Source: Halalkalirubrum salinum (GTDB taxonomy: Archaea > Halobacteriota > Halobacteria > Halobacteriales > Haloferacaceae). Taken from it: 64,000 bases of DNA. A program made the position numbers and the translations under genes. Each line of letters opens with the position of its first letter. Positions within the stretch are counted from its first letter, which is position 1. The notes under the pieces are model-generated. The model was not told the DNA's origin. It did not search any database and saw nothing but the letters and a program-made list of their open reading frames with translations. Below are positions 7,750 through 30,283 of this stretch, piece by piece. Where the stretch lies: assembly GCF_005543295.1 (NCBI RefSeq), contig NZ_SRSG01000020.1, positions 1-64,000 of the forward strand. The letters are read 5' to 3'.

Positions 7750-8139
7750 ATGAGCGAATCAGCCGACGACAAGTGGGGAATTGCCCACGTGTACGCGTCG
7801 TTTAATAACACCCTCATCACGATCACCGATCAGACGGGCGCCGAGACGATCGTCAAGTCCTCTGGCGGCTCTGTGGTGAAGCAAAACCGAGACGAGGCGT
7901 CGCCGTACGCAGCCATGCAGATGGCTGAGTCCGTCGCCGAGCAGGTCAAAGAGGCCGGCATCTCTGGGATCCACGTCCGCGTTCGCGGCCCTGGCGGTAA
8001 CGGAAACAAGTCTCCCGGCCCCGGCGCACAGGCGACGATCCGAGCGCTCGCACGCGCGGGGCTCGAAATTGGCCGCATCGAAGACGTGACGCCGATCCCA
8101 CACGACGGGACTCGAGCGCCGAAAAATAAACGGGTATAA
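7750..8139 (+). CDS. rps11: 30S ribosomal protein S11
   Basis: A 129-residue uS11 of the 30S platform. The hallmark segments are present: [19 protein letters not shown], the central [10 protein letters not shown] helix, [20 protein letters not shown], and the C-terminal [14 protein letters not shown]. It lies between rps4 and rpoD in the conserved archaeal S13-S4-S11-Rpo3 order, with gaps of 6 bp on both sides. Confidence 0.98.
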
Positions 8140-8145
8140 CGACAG

Positions 8146-8895
8146 ATGAGTGCCGAATTCGACGTCGAGTTCATCGAACGCGACGACAGGAGCGCACGGT
8201 TCCTCGTCCACGGGTTGACCCCCGCGTTCGCTAACGGGATCCGTCGCGCGATGATCGCGGACGTCCCGACCCTGTCGATCGACACGGTCCGGTTCATCGA
8301 GAACTCCTCGGTCATGTTCGACGAGATGATCGCCCTCCGACTGGGCCTCATCCCGCTAACAACGCCGCTTGCGGACTACGAGATCGGCGAGACGGTCACG
8401 GTCGCGCTCGATGTCGAGGGACCGGCGACCGCGTACTCCGGAGACATCACGACTTCGGACGGGCTGGTCGAACCCGCCGACAAAAATATCCCGATTATCA
8501 AGCTCAATCAGGGCCAACGCCTCGAATTCGAGGCCGACGCCGTGCTCGATCGCGGGAAAGAACACGCCAAACACCAGGGTGGTGTGTCGGTGGGTTACCG
8601 ACATCTCCAGCGAGTGGAGGTTATCGGTGATCGCGGCGAGTTTGACGAGGAGGAACCACACATCCTCCGTGGGGTCATCGAGACCGAAGACGGCGAACTC
8701 GTCGCAACCGACGAGTTCGACAACGACCTCACGAACCGCTACCCCGGAAAGGAGGTATCGGTGACCGACGTCCCCGGTGCGTTTGTCTTCCACGTGGAGA
8801 CCGACGGATCGCTGTCGGTCGAGGAACTGGTCGACCGGGCCGCCGAGTCGATCGGCGATCGCGCCGCGGAGCTGAAAGACGCGGTATCGGTCTAA
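8146..8895 (+). CDS. rpoD: DNA-directed RNA polymerase subunit Rpo3 (D)
   Basis: A 249-residue archaeal counterpart of the bacterial alpha N-terminal domain and eukaryotic Rpb3; it dimerises with Rpo11 to nucleate polymerase assembly. Family motifs are [23 protein letters not shown] near the N-terminus (given here only as a landmark, residues about 19-42) and LGLIPL. The Fe-S cluster insertion found in some archaeal D subunits seems absent, as I see no cysteine cluster. It ends this transcription block; a 206-bp gap with a new promoter separates it from tRNA-Leu. Confidence 0.97.
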
Positions 8896-9063
8896 GAAAC
8901 GAAACACAACATACAGCACACAGAACACCACTATGCCCCATTCGATCCACTCACGCGTCAAGGCGGCTCGCAGGCTCCCTGAGCCGTGCCGCCGATCGGA
9001 CGCGCGTCGACGGTCGGCAGCGCTCGGAGCCCCGAGCCGGCAGGCCGATCACGGGTGGACCGA

Positions 9064-9076
9064 AAGTGGTTTTACG
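9064..9076 (+). promoter_or_regulatory. probable promoter of tRNA-Leu / L18e-L13-S9 operon
   Basis: AAGTGGTTTTACG contains a purine-rich BRE-like part and a TATA-like TTTTAC. The expected start point about 25 bases downstream falls just before the tRNA at 9102. In Haloarcula marismortui the S9 operon is reported to be co-transcribed with tRNA-Leu, which fits this arrangement. The rest of the 8896-9101 gap holds no supportable gene. Confidence 0.45.
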
Positions 9077-9101
9077 GGGCGCGCGGTATCACGGAGTGCG
9101 T

Positions 9102-9186
9102 GCAGGGATAGCCAAGTCTGGCCAACGGCGCAGCGTTCAGGGCGCTGTCCCATAGGGGTCCGCAGGTTCAAATCCTGCTCCCTGCA
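9102..9186 (+). tRNA. tRNA-Leu(CAG)
   Basis: The acceptor GCAGGGA (9102-9108) pairs with TCCCTGC (9179-9185), with discriminator A at 9186. The anticodon stem CAGCG/CGCTG encloses the loop TTCAGGG, giving anticodon CAG. There is a long class-II variable arm and a T-arm GCAGG-TTCAAAT-CCTGC. It heads the L18e-L13-S9 operon, 35 bp before rpl18e. Confidence 0.96.
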
Positions 9187-9221
9187 CTCCGTTATTTTCA
9201 GATTACTAGAGGTTACACATC

Positions 9222-9578
9222 ATGAGTAGCAACAAAACAAATCCGAGACTGCAGCGTCTCATCGCCGAGCTGCAGACGGTTTCGAGCGAATCGGATGCCC
9301 CCGTATGGGCCGATGTCGCCGATCGCCTGCAGAAGCCACGGCGGACGCACGCCGAGGTCAACCTCGGTCGCATCGAACGATACGCACAGGAAGACGAGAC
9401 TGTCGTTGTACCCGGCAAGGTGCTGGGCAGCGGCGTCCTCCAAAAGAACGTCACCGTCGCAGCGGTCGACTTTTCGAACACTGCCAGAAAGAAGATCGAA
9501 CAGGTCGGCAACGCGGTGACGCTTGAACAGCTTACAGATGAAAACCCCGAGGGATCGAACGTGCGGGTGATCCGATGA
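9222..9578 (+). CDS. rpl18e: 50S ribosomal protein L18e
   Basis: A 118-residue L18e (uL15-like fold, specific to archaea and eukaryotes). Recognisable stretches are [42 protein letters not shown] and the C-terminal half [18 protein letters not shown]. It overlaps rpl13 by 4 bp and is the first protein gene after tRNA-Leu. Confidence 0.98.
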
Positions 9579-23797: not shown

Positions 23798-25177
23798 ATG
23801 AATGACTCTCTACAAAACTCCGAGATGGTACGGAAAATACAACGACGCGACGTGTTGAAGTCGGCAGGCCTTGCTGGGTCCGCCGCGATTACCGGGCTTG
23901 CAGGCTGTACTGGTGGCGGTAACGGTAACGGTGACGATGGCAACGGCAACGGCGGTAACGGTGGGAACGGCAACGGCGGTTCGGACGGCCCCGATGTGCT
24001 CACCGTCATCGGATATCCAGAGGATGCGATTCAATTGTTCCGTGACTACTACAGCGCCTACGGCGACGACGTCGACATTCTCATCCCGGACGGGCTTCGG
24101 GACCCGGACCTTCCGGGACAGGTTGGCGATGACATGTCGAACATCATCGGCACCGCGCCTGCGGCGGGCGGTCCGAACCAGTCGGCGTTCGAAGACCTTT
24201 TTCAGGACGAGTATGGCGAGTCGCCTGGTGTGTTCACCTCCCAGTCGTACGACTCGGCGGCGATCGGTATCCTCGCGAACGCCGCGGCCGGCGAAAACTC
24301 CGGACCCGCGATCCGCGACCAGATGCGCAACGTCTGTAATCCCGGCGGGATGGAAATCGGTCCCGGAAACTTCATCGAAGGCGTCGAGGCAGCCGCAAAC
24401 GGTGAAGAGATCCAGTATCAGGGCGCGTCGAGTTCGACGAACTTCGACGAGAACGGCGATCCAGCCGAGGCAGCGTATGCCCTCTGGGAGTTCGACAGCG
24501 ATGGCGGAACGACAGACATCGAAACCCAGACGTTCGAAGGCGGAGAGCCCGACGGGGCTGGCCCCTCTGCGGACGAGAGCCCCGGTGGCTTCGACCGCGA
24601 GATCATGCTCGGAATCTTACTGCCTGAGACCGGCTCGCTCGCTTCGACGGGCGGTCCAATGATTCAGGCTGCAGAGATTCCAGCGATGCAAGTCAACGAC
24701 TCCGATCTCGATCTCGAGGTGGACACGCAACTCGAAGACACCGAAACGAACTCCCAGTCTGGCGTCAGCGCGGCGAACTCGCTCGTCAACGGGGGGTATC
24801 CGTACATCTGTGGAACCGCGTCTTCTGGCGTGAATGTTCCGGTGTGTCAGGAGGTTCTCATTCCGAACGAGGTCGTCGGCTGTTCGCCGTCAAGTACTGC
24901 GCTGTCGGTGACGAACCTCGAAGACGACGGCTTCATCTTCCGGACGGCGCCTTCGGACCGGCTGCAGGGCCGCGTCATGGCGCAGGTTGCCTCTGACAAC
25001 CTCGGTGGATCGGCGTCTTCGACGCTCTACGTCAACAACGACTACGGACAGCAGCTCTCTGAGCGGTTCTCGGGGGTCTTCGAAGACGAGTTCGACGGGA
25101 GTATCCTGGGTGAAACTGCGTTCAACCAAGGTGAATCCTCGTACTCCTCGGTCGTCAACGAGGCGATGTCTTCGTAA
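23798..25177 (+). CDS. branched-chain-type ABC substrate-binding lipoprotein, apparently circularly permuted
   Basis: A 459-residue secreted lipoprotein. It carries a Tat motif (RRDVLKSAG; R16, R17) and a lipobox LAGC with C37, then a Gly/Asn linker to residue 64. Residues 65 to about 255 (DVLTVIGYPEDAIQLFRDYY onward, including GVFTSQSYDSAAIGILANA) match the usual C-terminal half of type I periplasmic-binding proteins. Residues 265-459 (EIMLGILLPETGSLASTGGP, later STLYVNNDYGQQL and QGESSYSSVVNEAMSS) match the usual N-terminal half, yet come second and end the protein. In canonical order NEAMSS would be followed by GPDVLTV. All parts are open and in frame, with no sign of decay. It converges on livFGMH, the likely permease. 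Confidence 0.9.
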   Translation: MNDSLQNSEMVRKIQRRDVLKSAGLAGSAAITGLAGCTGGGNGNGDDGNGNGGNGGNGNGGSDGPDVLTVIGYPEDAIQLFRDYYSAYGDDVDILIPDGLRDPDLPGQVGDDMSNIIGTAPAAGGPNQSAFEDLFQDEYGESPGVFTSQSYDSAAIGILANAAAGENSGPAIRDQMRNVCNPGGMEIGPGNFIEGVEAAANGEEIQYQGASSSTNFDENGDPAEAAYALWEFDSDGGTTDIETQTFEGGEPDGAGPSADESPGGFDREIMLGILLPETGSLASTGGPMIQAAEIPAMQVNDSDLDLEVDTQLEDTETNSQSGVSAANSLVNGGYPYICGTASSGVNVPVCQEVLIPNEVVGCSPSSTALSVTNLEDDGFIFRTAPSDRLQGRVMAQVASDNLGGSASSTLYVNNDYGQQLSERFSGVFEDEFDGSILGETAFNQGESSYSSVVNEAMSS

Positions 25178-25340: not shown

Positions 25341-26198
25341 TCAGCCGCCGAGGAAGTCCTGTCGCACCTGCGGATCGTTCAACAGGGTCAGCCCCTCGTC
25401 CTCGTAGCGGTTCTTGCCGTCGACAAAGACGTAGCCGCGATCACAGCGCCGAAGCGCCTTCTTTGCGTTCTGTTCGACCATCATGATCGCAGTTCCGTCG
25501 GCGTTGATCTCGTCGATCCGATCGAACATCTCGTCGACCAGATCAGGGGCAAGCCCCGCCGAGGGCTCGTCGAGTAACAATAGCTTTGGATCCAACATCA
25601 GCGCACGACCCATTGCGAGCATCTGCTGTTGGCCGCCAGAAAGCGTTCCCGCCTTCTGGTGTTTTCGTTCTTCGAGGATCGGGAATCGATCGAACACGTC
25701 ACGAAGCCGGTCCTCTGGCACCTCATCGAGGATGTACGCACCCATTTCGAGATTTTCGATAACCGACAGCGAGGGGAACACGTTGTCGTTTTGGGGCACG
25801 TATCCGAGTCCAAGGTGGATGATATCCTCCGGTTTGGTTCCGGTGATGTCCGCCCCATCAAAGACGACTGATCCACCCATCAGGTCTGTGATCGCGAACA
25901 CGGATTTCATCACCGTCGACTTGCCGGCCCCGTTTGGGCCGACGATCGTCACGTACTCGCCATCGTTGACGTCGAGATCAACGTCAGTGAGGATCTGTAG
26001 ATCGCCGTAGCCGGCGTCCAGGTCCCGGATCGACAGCAGGCTGTCTTCGTAGAGCGTGATCTCCGTCGCAGCCGATGTCGGCTCAGCAGCATCCGTCTCA
26101 CTGTTCTCAGCGTGGTCATCCGCCGTATTCGCGTCTACATCCGCCTGCGTCTCCTCGTCTGCGCCTCGATCGGACGCGGCGGCGTCTGCGTCGCTCAT
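25341..26198 (-). CDS. livF: branched-chain-type ABC transporter ATPase LivF
   Basis: A 285-residue ATPase of the HAAT (LivF) type. After an acidic low-complexity N-terminus of about 50 residues the ABC domain has Walker A VGPNGAGKST, Q-loop GYVPQNDNVFPSLSVIENL, signature LSGGQQQMLAMGRAL, Walker B LLLLDEPSAGLAP and the switch His region replaced by MMVEQN, as is normal for LivF. It overlaps livG by 4 bp and is the last gene of the livHMGF operon. The 163-bp gap to the convergent substrate-binding gene has a T-tract at 25204-25210. Confidence 0.95.
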   Translation of the reverse strand: MSDADAAASDRGADEETQADVDANTADDHAENSETDAAEPTSAATEITLYEDSLLSIRDLDAGYGDLQILTDVDLDVNDGEYVTIVGPNGAGKSTVMKSVFAITDLMGGSVVFDGADITGTKPEDIIHLGLGYVPQNDNVFPSLSVIENLEMGAYILDEVPEDRLRDVFDRFPILEERKHQKAGTLSGGQQQMLAMGRALMLDPKLLLLDEPSAGLAPDLVDEMFDRIDEINADGTAIMMVEQNAKKALRRCDRGYVFVDGKNRYEDEGLTLLNDPQVRQDFLGG

Positions 26199-27043
26199 AC
26201 CTCACCTCCGAGGTACGCCTCGATAACCTGCTCGTTGTTCCGAACTTGATCGGGTGTTCCCTCCGTGAGGATGTTACCTTGGTGCATGACGATGACTTTA
26301 CTGCAGTTTTGCATAATGAGGTCCATGTCGTGTTCGACGATGAGGAACGTGTATCCCTGATCACGCAGGTCGTGGATGTGCTCGAGGAGGCGCTCTTCGA
26401 GCGTCGGGTTGACGCCGGCGAACGGCTCGTCGAGCAGCAACATATCCGGATCGGTCAAAAGTGCCCGCGCGAGTTCGAGCAGCTTTCGTTGTCCCCCCGA
26501 GAGATTGCCGGCGTACTCCTCGGCGAGGTGATCGATGTCGAAGAAATCCAACGTCTCCCAGGCCCGCTCGACAAGTTCGTATTCCTGTTGATTCACGTCT
26601 TCGCGGGCCAGCACCGATCGCCACAGCTTTTCGCCGCGTTGGTTTTTCGGTGCGACCAACATGTTTTCGAGAACGGTCATCTCAGAGAGCTCGCGAGCGA
26701 TCTGAAACGTTCTAACGAGGCCGCGGTTTGCGACCTCGTACGGTTCCAATCCGGTGATGTCCGTTCCGTTGAATTCGACGACCCCCGAATCGGGAGTGTG
26801 AACCCCGGTAATGCAGTTGAACGTCGTCGATTTGCCGGCCCCATTTGGTCCAATGAGGCCTGTCATTGTCCCACGCTCGACCTCGAAGCCAGCATCGTCG
26901 ACCGCAGTGATGCCGCCGAAGGTCTTACGGAGATTTCTGACCCAGAGCGGGATTTCGTTGACATCAGCGGTTCCTCGGTTTGTTTCCAGTTCCTCGTCGG
27001 TGCCCGTGTGGGCGGGTTCAGATCGAGACTCAGCCTCACTCAT
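26195..27043 (-). CDS. livG: branched-chain-type ABC transporter ATPase LivG
   Basis: A 282-residue ATPase. Walker A is IGPNGAGKST, the signature LSGGQRKLLELARAL, Walker B LLLDEPFAGVNP, and the H-loop LIVEHDMDLIM. The C-terminal YLGGEV is typical of LivG. An acidic N-terminal 35 residues precede the domain. Its ATG at 27043 overlaps the livM stop by 8 bp; further in-frame ATGs upstream lie inside livM. It pairs with LivF on the cytoplasmic side of the permease. Confidence 0.95.
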   Translation of the reverse strand: MSEAESRSEPAHTGTDEELETNRGTADVNEIPLWVRNLRKTFGGITAVDDAGFEVERGTMTGLIGPNGAGKSTTFNCITGVHTPDSGVVEFNGTDITGLEPYEVANRGLVRTFQIARELSEMTVLENMLVAPKNQRGEKLWRSVLAREDVNQQEYELVERAWETLDFFDIDHLAEEYAGNLSGGQRKLLELARALLTDPDMLLLDEPFAGVNPTLEERLLEHIHDLRDQGYTFLIVEHDMDLIMQNCSKVIVMHQGNILTEGTPDQVRNNEQVIEAYLGGEV

Positions 27044-28442
27044 CGGTCTCACCTCCATCGCTCGCGAGTGATTTATTGCTGGCAGGACGATCGAGCGGCA
27101 CGCTCGAAGCAATCTCTTTTCTGTGACCCAACAACCCGTCGGGCCGGCGGTGCATCAACACAATGAGCACAACGCCCATGAGCACGAGCTGAAGTTGTCG
27201 CATATTGTCGACGGTGTACAGGAAGAACGGGACGATGTCCGCGCTGAGGATGGGTGCGACCGCCTGCGCAAAGCTCGAGGGCGCACTCGGCTCGCCGAGT
27301 ACGGTTTCGATGACGTTTTTCGCGTAGCGTGGTCCTTGGAACAGGAAGGCAGCAAAGATCGCTCCGCCCATGACGCTGCCGGTGTTTGAGCCTGCGCCAC
27401 CGATGATCAGCGCAATCCAGATGTAGAACGTGATTCGAGGCCGGAACGTATTGGGCGTGACAGACCCTTGCGTTCCGAACCAAAGGATGCCAATGAGCCC
27501 CATGAGCGCACAGCCGACCACGAACGACTTGATTTTAAACTGGTTGGTATTCTTACCCAGCGCGTTCGTCACGTCTTCGTCTTCTCGAATCGCCTTGAGG
27601 ACGCGACCGAACGGTGAGTTCCCCGTGCGCCGAAGCAGGACATAAAATCCACCAAGGATCAACAGCAGTACGGCCGCGTACGCGAAGGTATCAATCACCG
27701 ATTTCGGGTTTCCTGGAGTGAACACCGAGATGCCGTTGACGATAATTCCGATGTATATCTCCGTCCAGAGGAAGCCGTCTTGACCGGTCACCAGATCGAA
27801 CGGAAGACTCAGTGCTCGGATGAGTGCCTCAAGCGGATCAGTGAAATCGAGGATGAGGCCATTTCCGCCGCCGAGACCGAGGGTGTAGCCACCAACGGTA
27901 CCCTCACTGAGGGTATTCGAAAGCAGCGCGAACCGAACAATTTCTGACAGTGCGATCGTGACGATCGCAAGGTAGTCCGCCCGCAGCCGCAATGCCGGAA
28001 GCGCGGCGAGAAAGCCGAGCAGCCCTGCCGCGAGCACGCCGCCGACGATGCCGACAGAGAGCGGCAACCCCAATCCACCGACTTGGGCTGCGCTCGTTCC
28101 AGTACCATATACCGGCTTCGAGAGGATCGCCGTCACGTACACGCCGGTTGCCATGAACCCCACAATACCGATGTTGAAAAGCCCAGTGTATCCCCACTGG
28201 AGGTTGAGCGCGAGTGCGGACATCGCAAACAGCGCGATCCAAAACGTTAGTTGGCCGAGCTGATTGACAAGCCCTCGGACGGGAAATCCAATGACGAAAC
28301 CCGCGATCATATAAAGCGCGTACGTTGTTAATAAAAGCGCCAACAGCATCGTCCCGTCATTCGGAAACGTGATGCCGAAAAGCGACACTGCCTCCTCGTC
28401 GTCGCGCTGTGCGTACTCGCCGTCTGGTTCGGTGTCTGTCAT
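27036..28442 (-). CDS. livM: branched-chain-type ABC transporter permease LivM
   Basis: A 468-residue permease with about ten membrane segments. The family region SALALNLQWGYTGLFNIG is clear, followed by FMATGVYVTAILS; the coupling-loop stretch RRTGNSPFGRVLKAIREDED is the EAA-like cytoplasmic contact with the ATPases, and ALNLQWGYTGL is diagnostic of LivM. Acidic polar tails lie at both ends. The ATG at 28442 overlaps the livH stop by 4 bp. Confidence 0.94.
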   Translation of the reverse strand: MTDTEPDGEYAQRDDEEAVSLFGITFPNDGTMLLALLLTTYALYMIAGFVIGFPVRGLVNQLGQLTFWIALFAMSALALNLQWGYTGLFNIGIVGFMATGVYVTAILSKPVYGTGTSAAQVGGLGLPLSVGIVGGVLAAGLLGFLAALPALRLRADYLAIVTIALSEIVRFALLSNTLSEGTVGGYTLGLGGGNGLILDFTDPLEALIRALSLPFDLVTGQDGFLWTEIYIGIIVNGISVFTPGNPKSVIDTFAYAAVLLLILGGFYVLLRRTGNSPFGRVLKAIREDEDVTNALGKNTNQFKIKSFVVGCALMGLIGILWFGTQGSVTPNTFRPRITFYIWIALIIGGAGSNTGSVMGGAIFAAFLFQGPRYAKNVIETVLGEPSAPSSFAQAVAPILSADIVPFFLYTVDNMRQLQLVLMGVVLIVLMHRRPDGLLGHRKEIASSVPLDRPASNKSLASDGGETDE

Positions 28443-29557
28443 GCTGTCGACCTCCCTGCGAAGATTCCCTGTGGACGAACAATCAAAAAGAGAATCATCA
28501 CGAAGAACGCGGCTGCACGGGCGAACCCGGAAGGAATCCAGATCACTGCCGTCGATGCGACGATGCCGATGACGAGTCCACCGACAATCGCCCCGTAGAC
28601 CGATCCGATTCCCCCGAGAATGACCGCCGCGAAGATGAGCAACAACAACAGCCAGCCGTCGTTCCAGCTCAGTGTCCCCTTCCAGAGCACAAACATAAAG
28701 CCAGACACGCCGGTCAGTCCACCGCCAATAATCCACGTCGCCCGGATGACTCGCTCTGTCGGAATGCCAGTAATCCGTGAGAGCGACTGATCGTCGGACA
28801 TGGCCCGCATCGCCTTGCCGAGTTTGGTCCGCTGCAACAGCAGGTGGACGCCGAGCATCAAGCCGCCGGCAACAACAATGAGCGCCAGATCGTGCATTGT
28901 GAACACGACGGATCCATCGATGATTGTCGGTCTGATGTCTGGAACTGCCCCAGCAGCGGTCGTTCCACGCGTTCCGGGATCGAACACAAACCGGAGCATG
29001 TATCTGATTGCGAAGGCAGCCCCGATACTCGTGATGAGGAGTGGAATACCGCCCGACCCACGGATTGGTTTGAACACGAATCGATCCATAAGCAGGGCAA
29101 GTGCGATCGTAAATCCGCAGGCAACGATCAGTCCGGCGACTACTGCAAGCGGCGTTGAGACGACGTTAATTCCAAGCGCTCCACCAAAGACCGAGCCGCC
29201 TGCACCGACCAAAAGTAGCGATCCGATACTCGACTCTGCGCCGAACCGGCCAGCGATGAGATACGTCGTCGCCCAGCCGGCGAACGCCCCAGCGGTAATG
29301 TAATCCCCATGTGCGAAGTTCGCGAAATTCAGGATGCTATACGTCATCGAGAGCCCGATACCAGCCAGCCCGATCACTAACCCTCGCATGAGTCCATCCC
29401 ATACCAGAGAAAGTATTCGCGCAAACGTAATATCGCCCGTCGCGAGCTGTCGGACGACGTCAATAATCAACACTACTCCAACGACAATCAGGAAGGCAGC
29501 CATCGGATTTTTTGTGACCAGCCGCCGCCCGTTCTGTGCTATGTTTGCTGTCTCCAT
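28439..29557 (-). CDS. livH: branched-chain-type ABC transporter permease LivH
   Basis: A 372-residue permease with about eight membrane segments. Motifs: GLAGIGLSMTYSILNFANFAH (residues about 60-80, the LivH signature with NFAHGD), FVFKPIRGSGGIPLLITSIG, and the coupling loop RTKLGKAMRAMSDDQSLSRI. It is the first gene of livHMGF. A TATA box lies about 35 bases upstream of the ATG. No substrate-binding gene is found upstream of it on the same strand; the only one nearby is the convergent gene at 23798. Confidence 0.94.
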   Translation of the reverse strand: METANIAQNGRRLVTKNPMAAFLIVVGVVLIIDVVRQLATGDITFARILSLVWDGLMRGLVIGLAGIGLSMTYSILNFANFAHGDYITAGAFAGWATTYLIAGRFGAESSIGSLLLVGAGGSVFGGALGINVVSTPLAVVAGLIVACGFTIALALLMDRFVFKPIRGSGGIPLLITSIGAAFAIRYMLRFVFDPGTRGTTAAGAVPDIRPTIIDGSVVFTMHDLALIVVAGGLMLGVHLLLQRTKLGKAMRAMSDDQSLSRITGIPTERVIRATWIIGGGLTGVSGFMFVLWKGTLSWNDGWLLLLLIFAAVILGGIGSVYGAIVGGLVIGIVASTAVIWIPSGFARAAAFFVMILFLIVRPQGIFAGRSTA

Positions 29558-29737: not shown

Positions 29738-30283
29738 TCACACGTCGGCACAGTTTGGACACCGCATCTGCCCATTGATTTGCGTCAGCTCGGCGCTCAA
29801 CGAGCCACAGAGTTCACAGATACTGTGTTGTGGTTCTGTGTCTCCTTCGGTTTCGTAGCTGGGATCGCTCATGCGATCGACTCGGCCATCGCTTACGGCG
29901 GTATCTGGATCGCCCACGGCTAACAGGAGGTCCCGTTCAGTGACGACACCAATCGGCCCCTCCCCGTTGACGACAAGTACCGAGGCCACATCGTCTGTCA
30001 CCAACTGCTTGCGGACTGCTGAGAGTCCGGCGTCATCTGGGACCGTTGGGACCGTTGCATCCATGATCTCGTTGACGGGCCGATCGGCCGATCCGCTCTC
30101 GAGCGTTGCGTCGAGTAGTTCGTGAATTGAGACCTGCCCGATCGGTTCGTGTCCCCGCATGACGACAATGCAGTTCGCTGTCTCTTCGACAGCCAGCGAG
30201 GCTGCATCCGCGAGCGTATCCGATTCGCTCACGCCAACGAATTCGTGGCGCATCACATCACGTGCTGTGCTATCTGTGTGCAT
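29738..30283 (-). CDS. CBS-domain protein with C-terminal zinc ribbon
   Basis: A 181-residue protein with two CBS domains: the first starts STARDVMRHEFVGVSESDTL and contains ANCIVVMRGHEPIGQVSIHE; the second contains DDVASVLVVNGEGPIGVVTE. CBS pairs bind adenosyl ligands. The C-terminus has a zinc ribbon CELCG...CPNC. The combination suggests a regulatory protein that senses energy charge and contacts nucleic acid or protein. It is upstream of livH on the same strand but separated by about 180 bp with its own livH promoter, so linkage is weak. Confidence 0.85.
   Translation of the reverse strand: MHTDSTARDVMRHEFVGVSESDTLADAASLAVEETANCIVVMRGHEPIGQVSIHELLDATLESGSADRPVNEIMDATVPTVPDDAGLSAVRKQLVTDDVASVLVVNGEGPIGVVTERDLLLAVGDPDTAVSDGRVDRMSDPSYETEGDTEPQHSICELCGSLSAELTQINGQMRCPNCADV

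Follow-up and report, generated by a model that had tools for sequence, protein, structure and literature searches.

The locus considered here raises a simple question: can the substrate-binding lipoprotein of an importer carry its two halves in the reverse of the usual order and still be a working protein? A first-pass annotation of a 64,000-nt stretch of Halalkalirubrum salinum DNA (contig NZ_SRSG01000020.1, positions 1 to 64,000, forward strand; hereafter "the window") had read the open reading frame at 23798-25177 (+) as a circularly permuted relative of LivJ. Based on the sequence comparisons and structural models described below, we consider it very probable that this gene encodes a working, naturally permuted lipoprotein of the LivJ/LivK family that delivers an amino acid to a LivHMFG importer, and that the permutation is derived and has been kept by selection.

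The gene and the order of its two halves

The frame at 23798-25177 (+) has no internal stops, and the earlier claim that it is free of frameshifts and stops held when we checked it. Codon-position G+C is normal across both halves. The signal region of the protein reads RRDVLK...LAGC (twin-arginine plus lipobox), and Met10, R16, R17, G36, and C37 are nearly invariant among 48 permuted homologues, in agreement with the Tat/lipobox signal originally assigned to it. The start was initially placed at 23798, which is the first in-frame ATG. Although the gene is annotatable from there, its start codon is likely Met10, 27 bases downstream at 23825, because nearly all of the homologues begin at this residue and a TATA-like CTTAAT is located ~28-33 bases 5' of its codon. 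The resulting features are listed in Table 1.

Table 1. Coordinates of the binding-protein gene, its parts, and the neighbouring genes in the window
Feature	Position	Strand	Remarks
Tat signal peptide and lipobox	23825..23908	+	RR at residues 16-17; LAGC, with predicted lipidated Cys37
Gly/Asn/Asp-rich tether from lipid anchor to fold	23909..23989	+	Residues 38-64; from sequence
C-terminal half of LivJ-type protein, placed first	23990..24538	+	Residues 65-~247; PF13458 profile 191-311
Linker from natural C-terminus to natural N-terminus	24539..24598	+	~20 residues (248-267), ends GGFDR; absent from canonical relatives
N-terminal half of LivJ-type protein, placed last, and stop	24599..25177	+	Residues 268-459; PF13458 profile 2-189
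livF-like ABC ATPase	25341..26198	-	Convergent with binding-protein gene
livG-like ABC ATPase	26195..27112	-	ORF limits; true start uncertain
livM-like permease	27036..28445	-	Start ~28445, estimated
livH-like permease	28439..29557	-	liv transporter neighbourhood
CBS-domain protein	29738..30283	-	Window ORF

The Pfam family PF13458 (Peripla_BP_6) matches the window protein as two swapped pieces, with residues 269-459 corresponding to positions 2-189 of the profile and residues from 65 onward to positions 191-311. The native protein scores 91.8 bits, compared to a gathering cut-off of 31.7, and both halves match; what it lacks is the usual arrangement of the profile, in which the N-half precedes the C-half, and it is because of this swapped order that we class it as a permuted variant. 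When the halves were put back in the canonical order, they gave a single continuous match to profile positions 2-311 and the score rose to 103.3 bits. Similarly, the re-ordered protein aligned with T. maritima LivK (3td9) in a single continuous alignment (3-313, E 1.4e-16), whereas the native-order protein aligned in pieces.

Each half also aligns to LivJ-type relatives, including canonical orthologues, in which the counterpart of the first-placed half is found downstream of the N-half. The half that normally starts the protein comes last and runs up to the stop, as originally described. The half that normally ends it is indeed placed first, from residue 65, but extends to ~247 and not to ~255, and the linker between the two is ~20 residues long rather than the 10-15 first estimated. 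A mistaken view of the family order can be rejected, given that the PDB, Pfam, close orthologues, and outgroups all show the canonical order, which also prevails in the rest of the family. Sequence, profile, predicted structure, and orthologue comparison all support the view that the window ORF encodes a circularly permuted LivJ-type lipoprotein.

Predicted fold

The AlphaFold2 model of the window protein, made with the 48 permuted homologues, has a pLDDT of 84.7 overall, ~92 over residues 62-459, and <50 over residues 1-61, with a pTM of 0.80. The permuted protein is therefore predicted to form a confident two-lobed type I fold, which was the outcome that the permutation hypothesis called for. 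A canonical orthologue from Halogranum amylolyticum (L061), modelled with 33 canonical relatives, gave a pLDDT of 87.1 and a pTM of 0.85. The helix and strand orders of the two models are cyclic shifts of each other, broken between helix 234-241 and strand 247-251 (canonical numbering, L061 model), which places the break in a loop between helix and strand, in agreement with the first-pass annotation.

Each half of the permuted model matches LivJ/LivK structures. In Foldseek comparisons with LivJ and LivK in the PDB, the canonical model aligned over ~380 columns (for 3td9, TM 0.73 by query and 0.89 by target), compared to only ~190 columns and a TM of 0.34 for the permuted model. Since a Foldseek alignment is sequential, alignment over half of the length is as expected for a permutation. 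VIA-align placed residues 267-459 of the permuted model on residues 1-192 of 3ipc; here too, the alignment lies mainly over 266-459, without whole-length rows, because it is sequential and not because the fold differs. If lobe I of LivJ spans residues ~1-120 and 250-329 and lobe II the remainder, which we take to be the case, the new termini would fall within lobe II and the new linker would connect lobe II to lobe I.

The locus and its canonical counterparts

The binding-protein gene in the window adjoins, and converges on, livF-livG-livM-livH, and this order of transporter genes was found in 90 permuted and 39 canonical loci (129/129). In a number of other genomes, a relative of the CBS-domain protein is encoded immediately 5' to the binding-protein gene. 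The canonical haloarchaeal orthologues (from Halogranum, Halobium, Halobaculum, and Natronomonas; L059-L068) share with the window protein 50-60% identity per half, the same type of signal and, where the transporter is present, the same convergent neighbours. They differ in having the canonical order, no internal linker, and a two-residue helix-strand junction between the halves. As the same convergent arrangement surrounds both forms, the two substitute for one another at orthologous positions, and the permutation is therefore derived and occurred at this locus. That the permuted form is derived is also indicated by the canonical order in the non-Halobacteriales orders of the phylum and in Halanaerobium.

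The canonical relative in Halanaerobium (Bacillota; L073-L078) is ~40% and ~30% identical in the two halves and has its own livGFHM set, which is perhaps the result of inter-domain transfer. Another canonical relative, in a Thermoplasmatales MAG (L079; 37%/27% identity), is convergent on livF-G-M-H as in haloarchaea, and reflects either transfer or mis-binning.

At two loci, L041:8001-10805 and L206 (G210:C1:1783968-1786860), two permuted genes follow one another head to tail next to one liv transporter, and tandem duplication therefore recurs at this site. Two permuted genes are also present in G065, G121, G137, G177, G181, G190, G194, and G214. The second copies of such tandems may have different substrates.

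Junctions, linkers, and a proposed route

In canonical proteins, the halves meet at ...SALxx-PDxL..., with just two residues between helix and strand. Permuted proteins fall into four clades (A, which contains the window protein, B, C, and D; see below) and, in every one of them, the chain terminates two to five residues past that helix and the first half begins at PDxL. In all permuted clades, ~45-49 residues separate the FDxxGD motif from the natural N-terminus, compared to a canonical tail of ~26, i.e., ~20 residues have been added. The added linker reads PDGxGPSADxxPGGxxR in clade A, LSEEDxNATAADPVGVDSFTAR in clade B, DIPQPEPxGSGSDSGRT in clade C, and GGSDGGGGSDSIPGSSSDRT, or a linker of similar length, in clade D. 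Those of clades A, B, and C/D are thus dissimilar in sequence, while similar in length. In clade B, the linker lacks Gly enrichment and, in many cases, carries the N-glycosylation sequon NAT (e.g., the L095 gene at 7892-9271 (-)).

The 3' end of the linker in clades A, C, and D resembles the canonical mature N-terminus (GGxxR[TE] before the first strand), as would be expected had the C-terminal tail of one copy been joined to the N-terminus of another. No comparable scar is present at the junction of canonical genes, and reversion from a permuted ancestor is therefore unlikely. We suggest that canonical genes at this locus gave rise to the permuted gene, probably starting with a tandem duplication, after which the C-half of copy 1 would have been fused to the N-half of copy 2 and the outer halves lost. 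The Gly/Ser-rich linkers may have mediated such a duplication, as the first-pass annotation proposed. A canonical tandem-duplication intermediate was sought in the fetched loci, where only permuted-permuted tandems were found.

Two residues near the linker set clades A and B apart from canonical group G. In the strand encoded by 24467-24493 of the window (residues ~224-232), which follows FDENGDxx, clades A and B have Ala where group G has Val and, a few residues further on, Phe where group G has Tyr. It is possible that the shared Ala and Phe represent convergent adjustment beside the new linker.

Number of independent permutations

In a tree of the binding protein, built with both halves restored to the canonical order, the permuted genes formed the separate clades A, B, C, and D. 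Clades B, C, and D were recovered from each half alone, and clade B sat with canonical group G in both half trees, albeit merely by proximity in the tree of the C-half. The AU test rejected a single permuted clade (p 0.027), and gave p 0.09 (first set) or 0.045 (set with denser B and G) for A+B; A+C+D as a clade was not rejected (p 0.28). Mean identity of clade B in the N/C halves is 62/58% to group G, compared to 47/50% to clade A, and 17 fixed residues unite B with G against A, while only 4 unite B with A against G.

Evidence independent of the binding protein came from a tree of the four transporter proteins (1185 columns), in which two clade C loci, L199 and L200, are under a provisional label. 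Clade B grouped with canonical loci L092, L093, and L096 (support 99), clades C and D grouped together (100), and clade A fell within a larger group with canonical L060, L091, L214, L100, and L227 (95-96). AU tests on the transporter rejected all permuted loci as one clade (p 2.5e-5), A+B (p 3.5e-6), and B+C+D (p 0.008), and did not reject A+C+D (p 0.07). At least two independent permutations are thus well supported by the sequence data, and our best estimate is three (A, with the window; B; and C+D). Because the binding-protein AU tests for separate origins are marginal, the case for two events is stronger than that for three.

One might argue instead for a single ancient permutation, with the gene spreading between Liv loci and conversion by canonical copies making clades B and C+D look canonical. 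The breakpoint is common to all permuted clades within a few residues, as a single origin would predict, A+C+D survives the AU tests, and conversion is possible given that some genomes hold both permuted and canonical copies. However, we regard this scenario as unlikely. The two halves of clade B side separately with group G (with the proviso noted above for the C-half), the diagnostic residues are spread over both halves, and the adjacent livFGMH genes place clade B in the same way. In addition, no homology is apparent between the linkers of A, B, and C/D. 

In one genus (g13), the permuted genes belong to clade B in some species (E ~1e-250) and are exclusively clade A-like in others (E ~1e-110), a pattern that looks as though whole operons were exchanged.

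Proposed function of the permuted protein

We propose that the permuted protein works as follows. After export, the chain would receive its lipid at Cys37, which would hold it at the outer face of the membrane. In canonical terms, it would begin in the middle of lobe II, reach the natural C-terminus, cross the ~20-residue linker to the natural N-terminus, and return to the loop from which it started, thereby re-forming a normal Venus-flytrap fold of two lobes. The binding protein would then hand its amino acid to the LivHMFG importer encoded convergently alongside. Such a role is suggested by the family match, the genomic linkage, and conserved pocket motifs. Among the 48 permuted sequences, S343 and T367 are invariant and Y73 and D98 nearly so; by motif alignment, these would be the equivalents of LivJ Ser79, Thr102, Tyr202, and Glu226. 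The substrate is probably an amino acid, branched-chain or otherwise hydrophobic.

The permuted protein could also function outside transport, as a sensor, a scavenging lipoprotein, or a domain-swapped dimer. Receptors, too, use the lipid-anchored type I binding fold, and permuted termini can favour swapped assembly. A function of this kind nevertheless seems quite improbable, as the convergent linkage to a complete livFGMH set is conserved in both forms and the binding protein and transporter are co-inherited in the trees.

Compared to the canonical protein, the transport-linked permutant would keep the three natural lobe crossings, add a flexible fourth connection, and have its membrane tether shifted from lobe I to lobe II. 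Recurrence at a single loop may reflect selection, or merely a loop that is tolerant of new ends. The idea that three permutations occurred at the same loop because they are useful, with the tether on lobe II and the fourth connection tuning closing and importer docking, is one that we put forward only tentatively.

Distribution, integrity, and selection

Most of 80 loci from reference genomes match the whole window protein collinearly, with 50-92% identity, and a sister genome has the same swapped order at 96% identity. A permuted query matched 190 genomes at E up to 1e-60 when a sample of 392 from the Halobacteriales was searched, and ~160 of these, from nine families, contain a full-length collinear permuted copy (counted from the table at E <1e-90, a value reached only by full-length collinear matches). 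Canonical full-length relatives were found in 159 genomes of the same sample. Some genomes, e.g., G013 and G054, have the permuted gene plus a canonical relative elsewhere. Among haloarchaeal plasmid matches, no full-length collinear permuted copy indicative of plasmid-borne spread was evident; those matches that cover both halves are two joined pieces, like canonical copies.

Permuted frames are intact in 137/138 cases (all fetched loci), and pairwise dN/dS values of the permuted genes are 0.06-0.26; the permuted gene is kept by purifying selection. The sole broken permuted frame (L053:2451-3553) is frameshifted and located on a metagenome-assembled contig, and a canonical copy is frameshifted in Halolamina rubra (L066:6055-7298); these frameshifts represent either sequencing error or true decay.

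Given that some genomes have a canonical relative elsewhere, we considered whether the permuted gene could be a decaying or non-functional shuffled copy beside a working canonical partner. This is very improbable, and the pseudogene reading is rejected on the basis of the intact frames and low dN/dS. Moreover, a close canonical orthologue is absent from the window's genome, where it is the permuted gene that holds the transporter-linked site. The other LivJ-type paralogues in that genome are distant (<=36% identity over the halves), so that the second full canonical copy that might have exposed a chimera is not there. An assembly chimera or a misannotated canonical gene, for which only the oddity of the half order speaks, is ruled out for practical purposes, as is chance, by the presence of the same order in the sister genome and in dozens of independent assemblies, complete chromosomes included, and by the uninterrupted frame with its normal codon-position G+C.

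Relation to known systems

Natural circular permutations are usually recognised by distant structural resemblance, with the event itself lost in time. Compared to canonical LivJ/LivK (PF13458; 3td9, 4n0q, 3ipc, 2lbp), the window protein is alike in both halves and in its predicted two-lobed fold, aligns end to end once re-ordered, and is likewise encoded by a lipoprotein gene beside livFGMH. It differs in its reversed halves, its new linker of ~20 residues, and new termini within the equivalent of lobe II. Judged by sequence, predicted fold, and locus, it is a member of the LivJ family that departs from the others only in linear order. Canonical homologues exist, order is the sole gross difference from them, and a two-lobed fold is predicted, as expected of a natural circular permutant.

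There is a precedent among substrate-binding proteins of ABC importers. The CPSARST study described natural circular permutation in glycine-betaine-binding proteins, namely 2B4L (B. subtilis OpuAC) versus 1R9L and 1SW1 (ProX), which have a type II fold and <24% identity, without locus-level orthology having been shown (PMC2395249). The window protein, by contrast, is of type I fold, has canonical orthologues that are 50-60% identical to it and occupy the same locus, and belongs to a permuted form with several origins. In Pfam and PDB searches, it matched no glycine-betaine family above threshold, its matches being to Peripla_BP_6 and LivJ/LivK only. The OpuAC paper makes no mention of permutation (PMC2861598). 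In the open-licence literature, we found no report of a natural permuted LivJ (type I), leucine-binding, or haloarchaeal binding protein, in line with the first-pass annotation, to which none was known. Bilobal binding proteins can withstand permutation, as seen from the engineered permutants used in biosensors; the latter are laboratory constructs, whereas the window protein is encoded by a natural gene.

The circular permutation originally proposed for this gene has been borne out, but the case is far from isolated: the permuted form is fixed and widespread among haloarchaea, has canonical orthologues in the same genomic place, and probably originated more than once. The permuted members of the LivJ family fall into a blind spot, in that a sequential structure search recovers half of the fold and profile matches split into two pieces, and they can therefore be missed. 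The rearrangement seems to be old and widespread in salt-loving archaea, and seems to have taken place at the same spot at least twice. Across hundreds of genomes, permuted and unpermuted orthologues that are 50-60% identical are found at one shared position relative to the operon, and the permutation has seemingly recurred at a single site. This system makes it possible to test how permutations become fixed, why one loop has been used repeatedly, and what effect a moved anchor has on transport.
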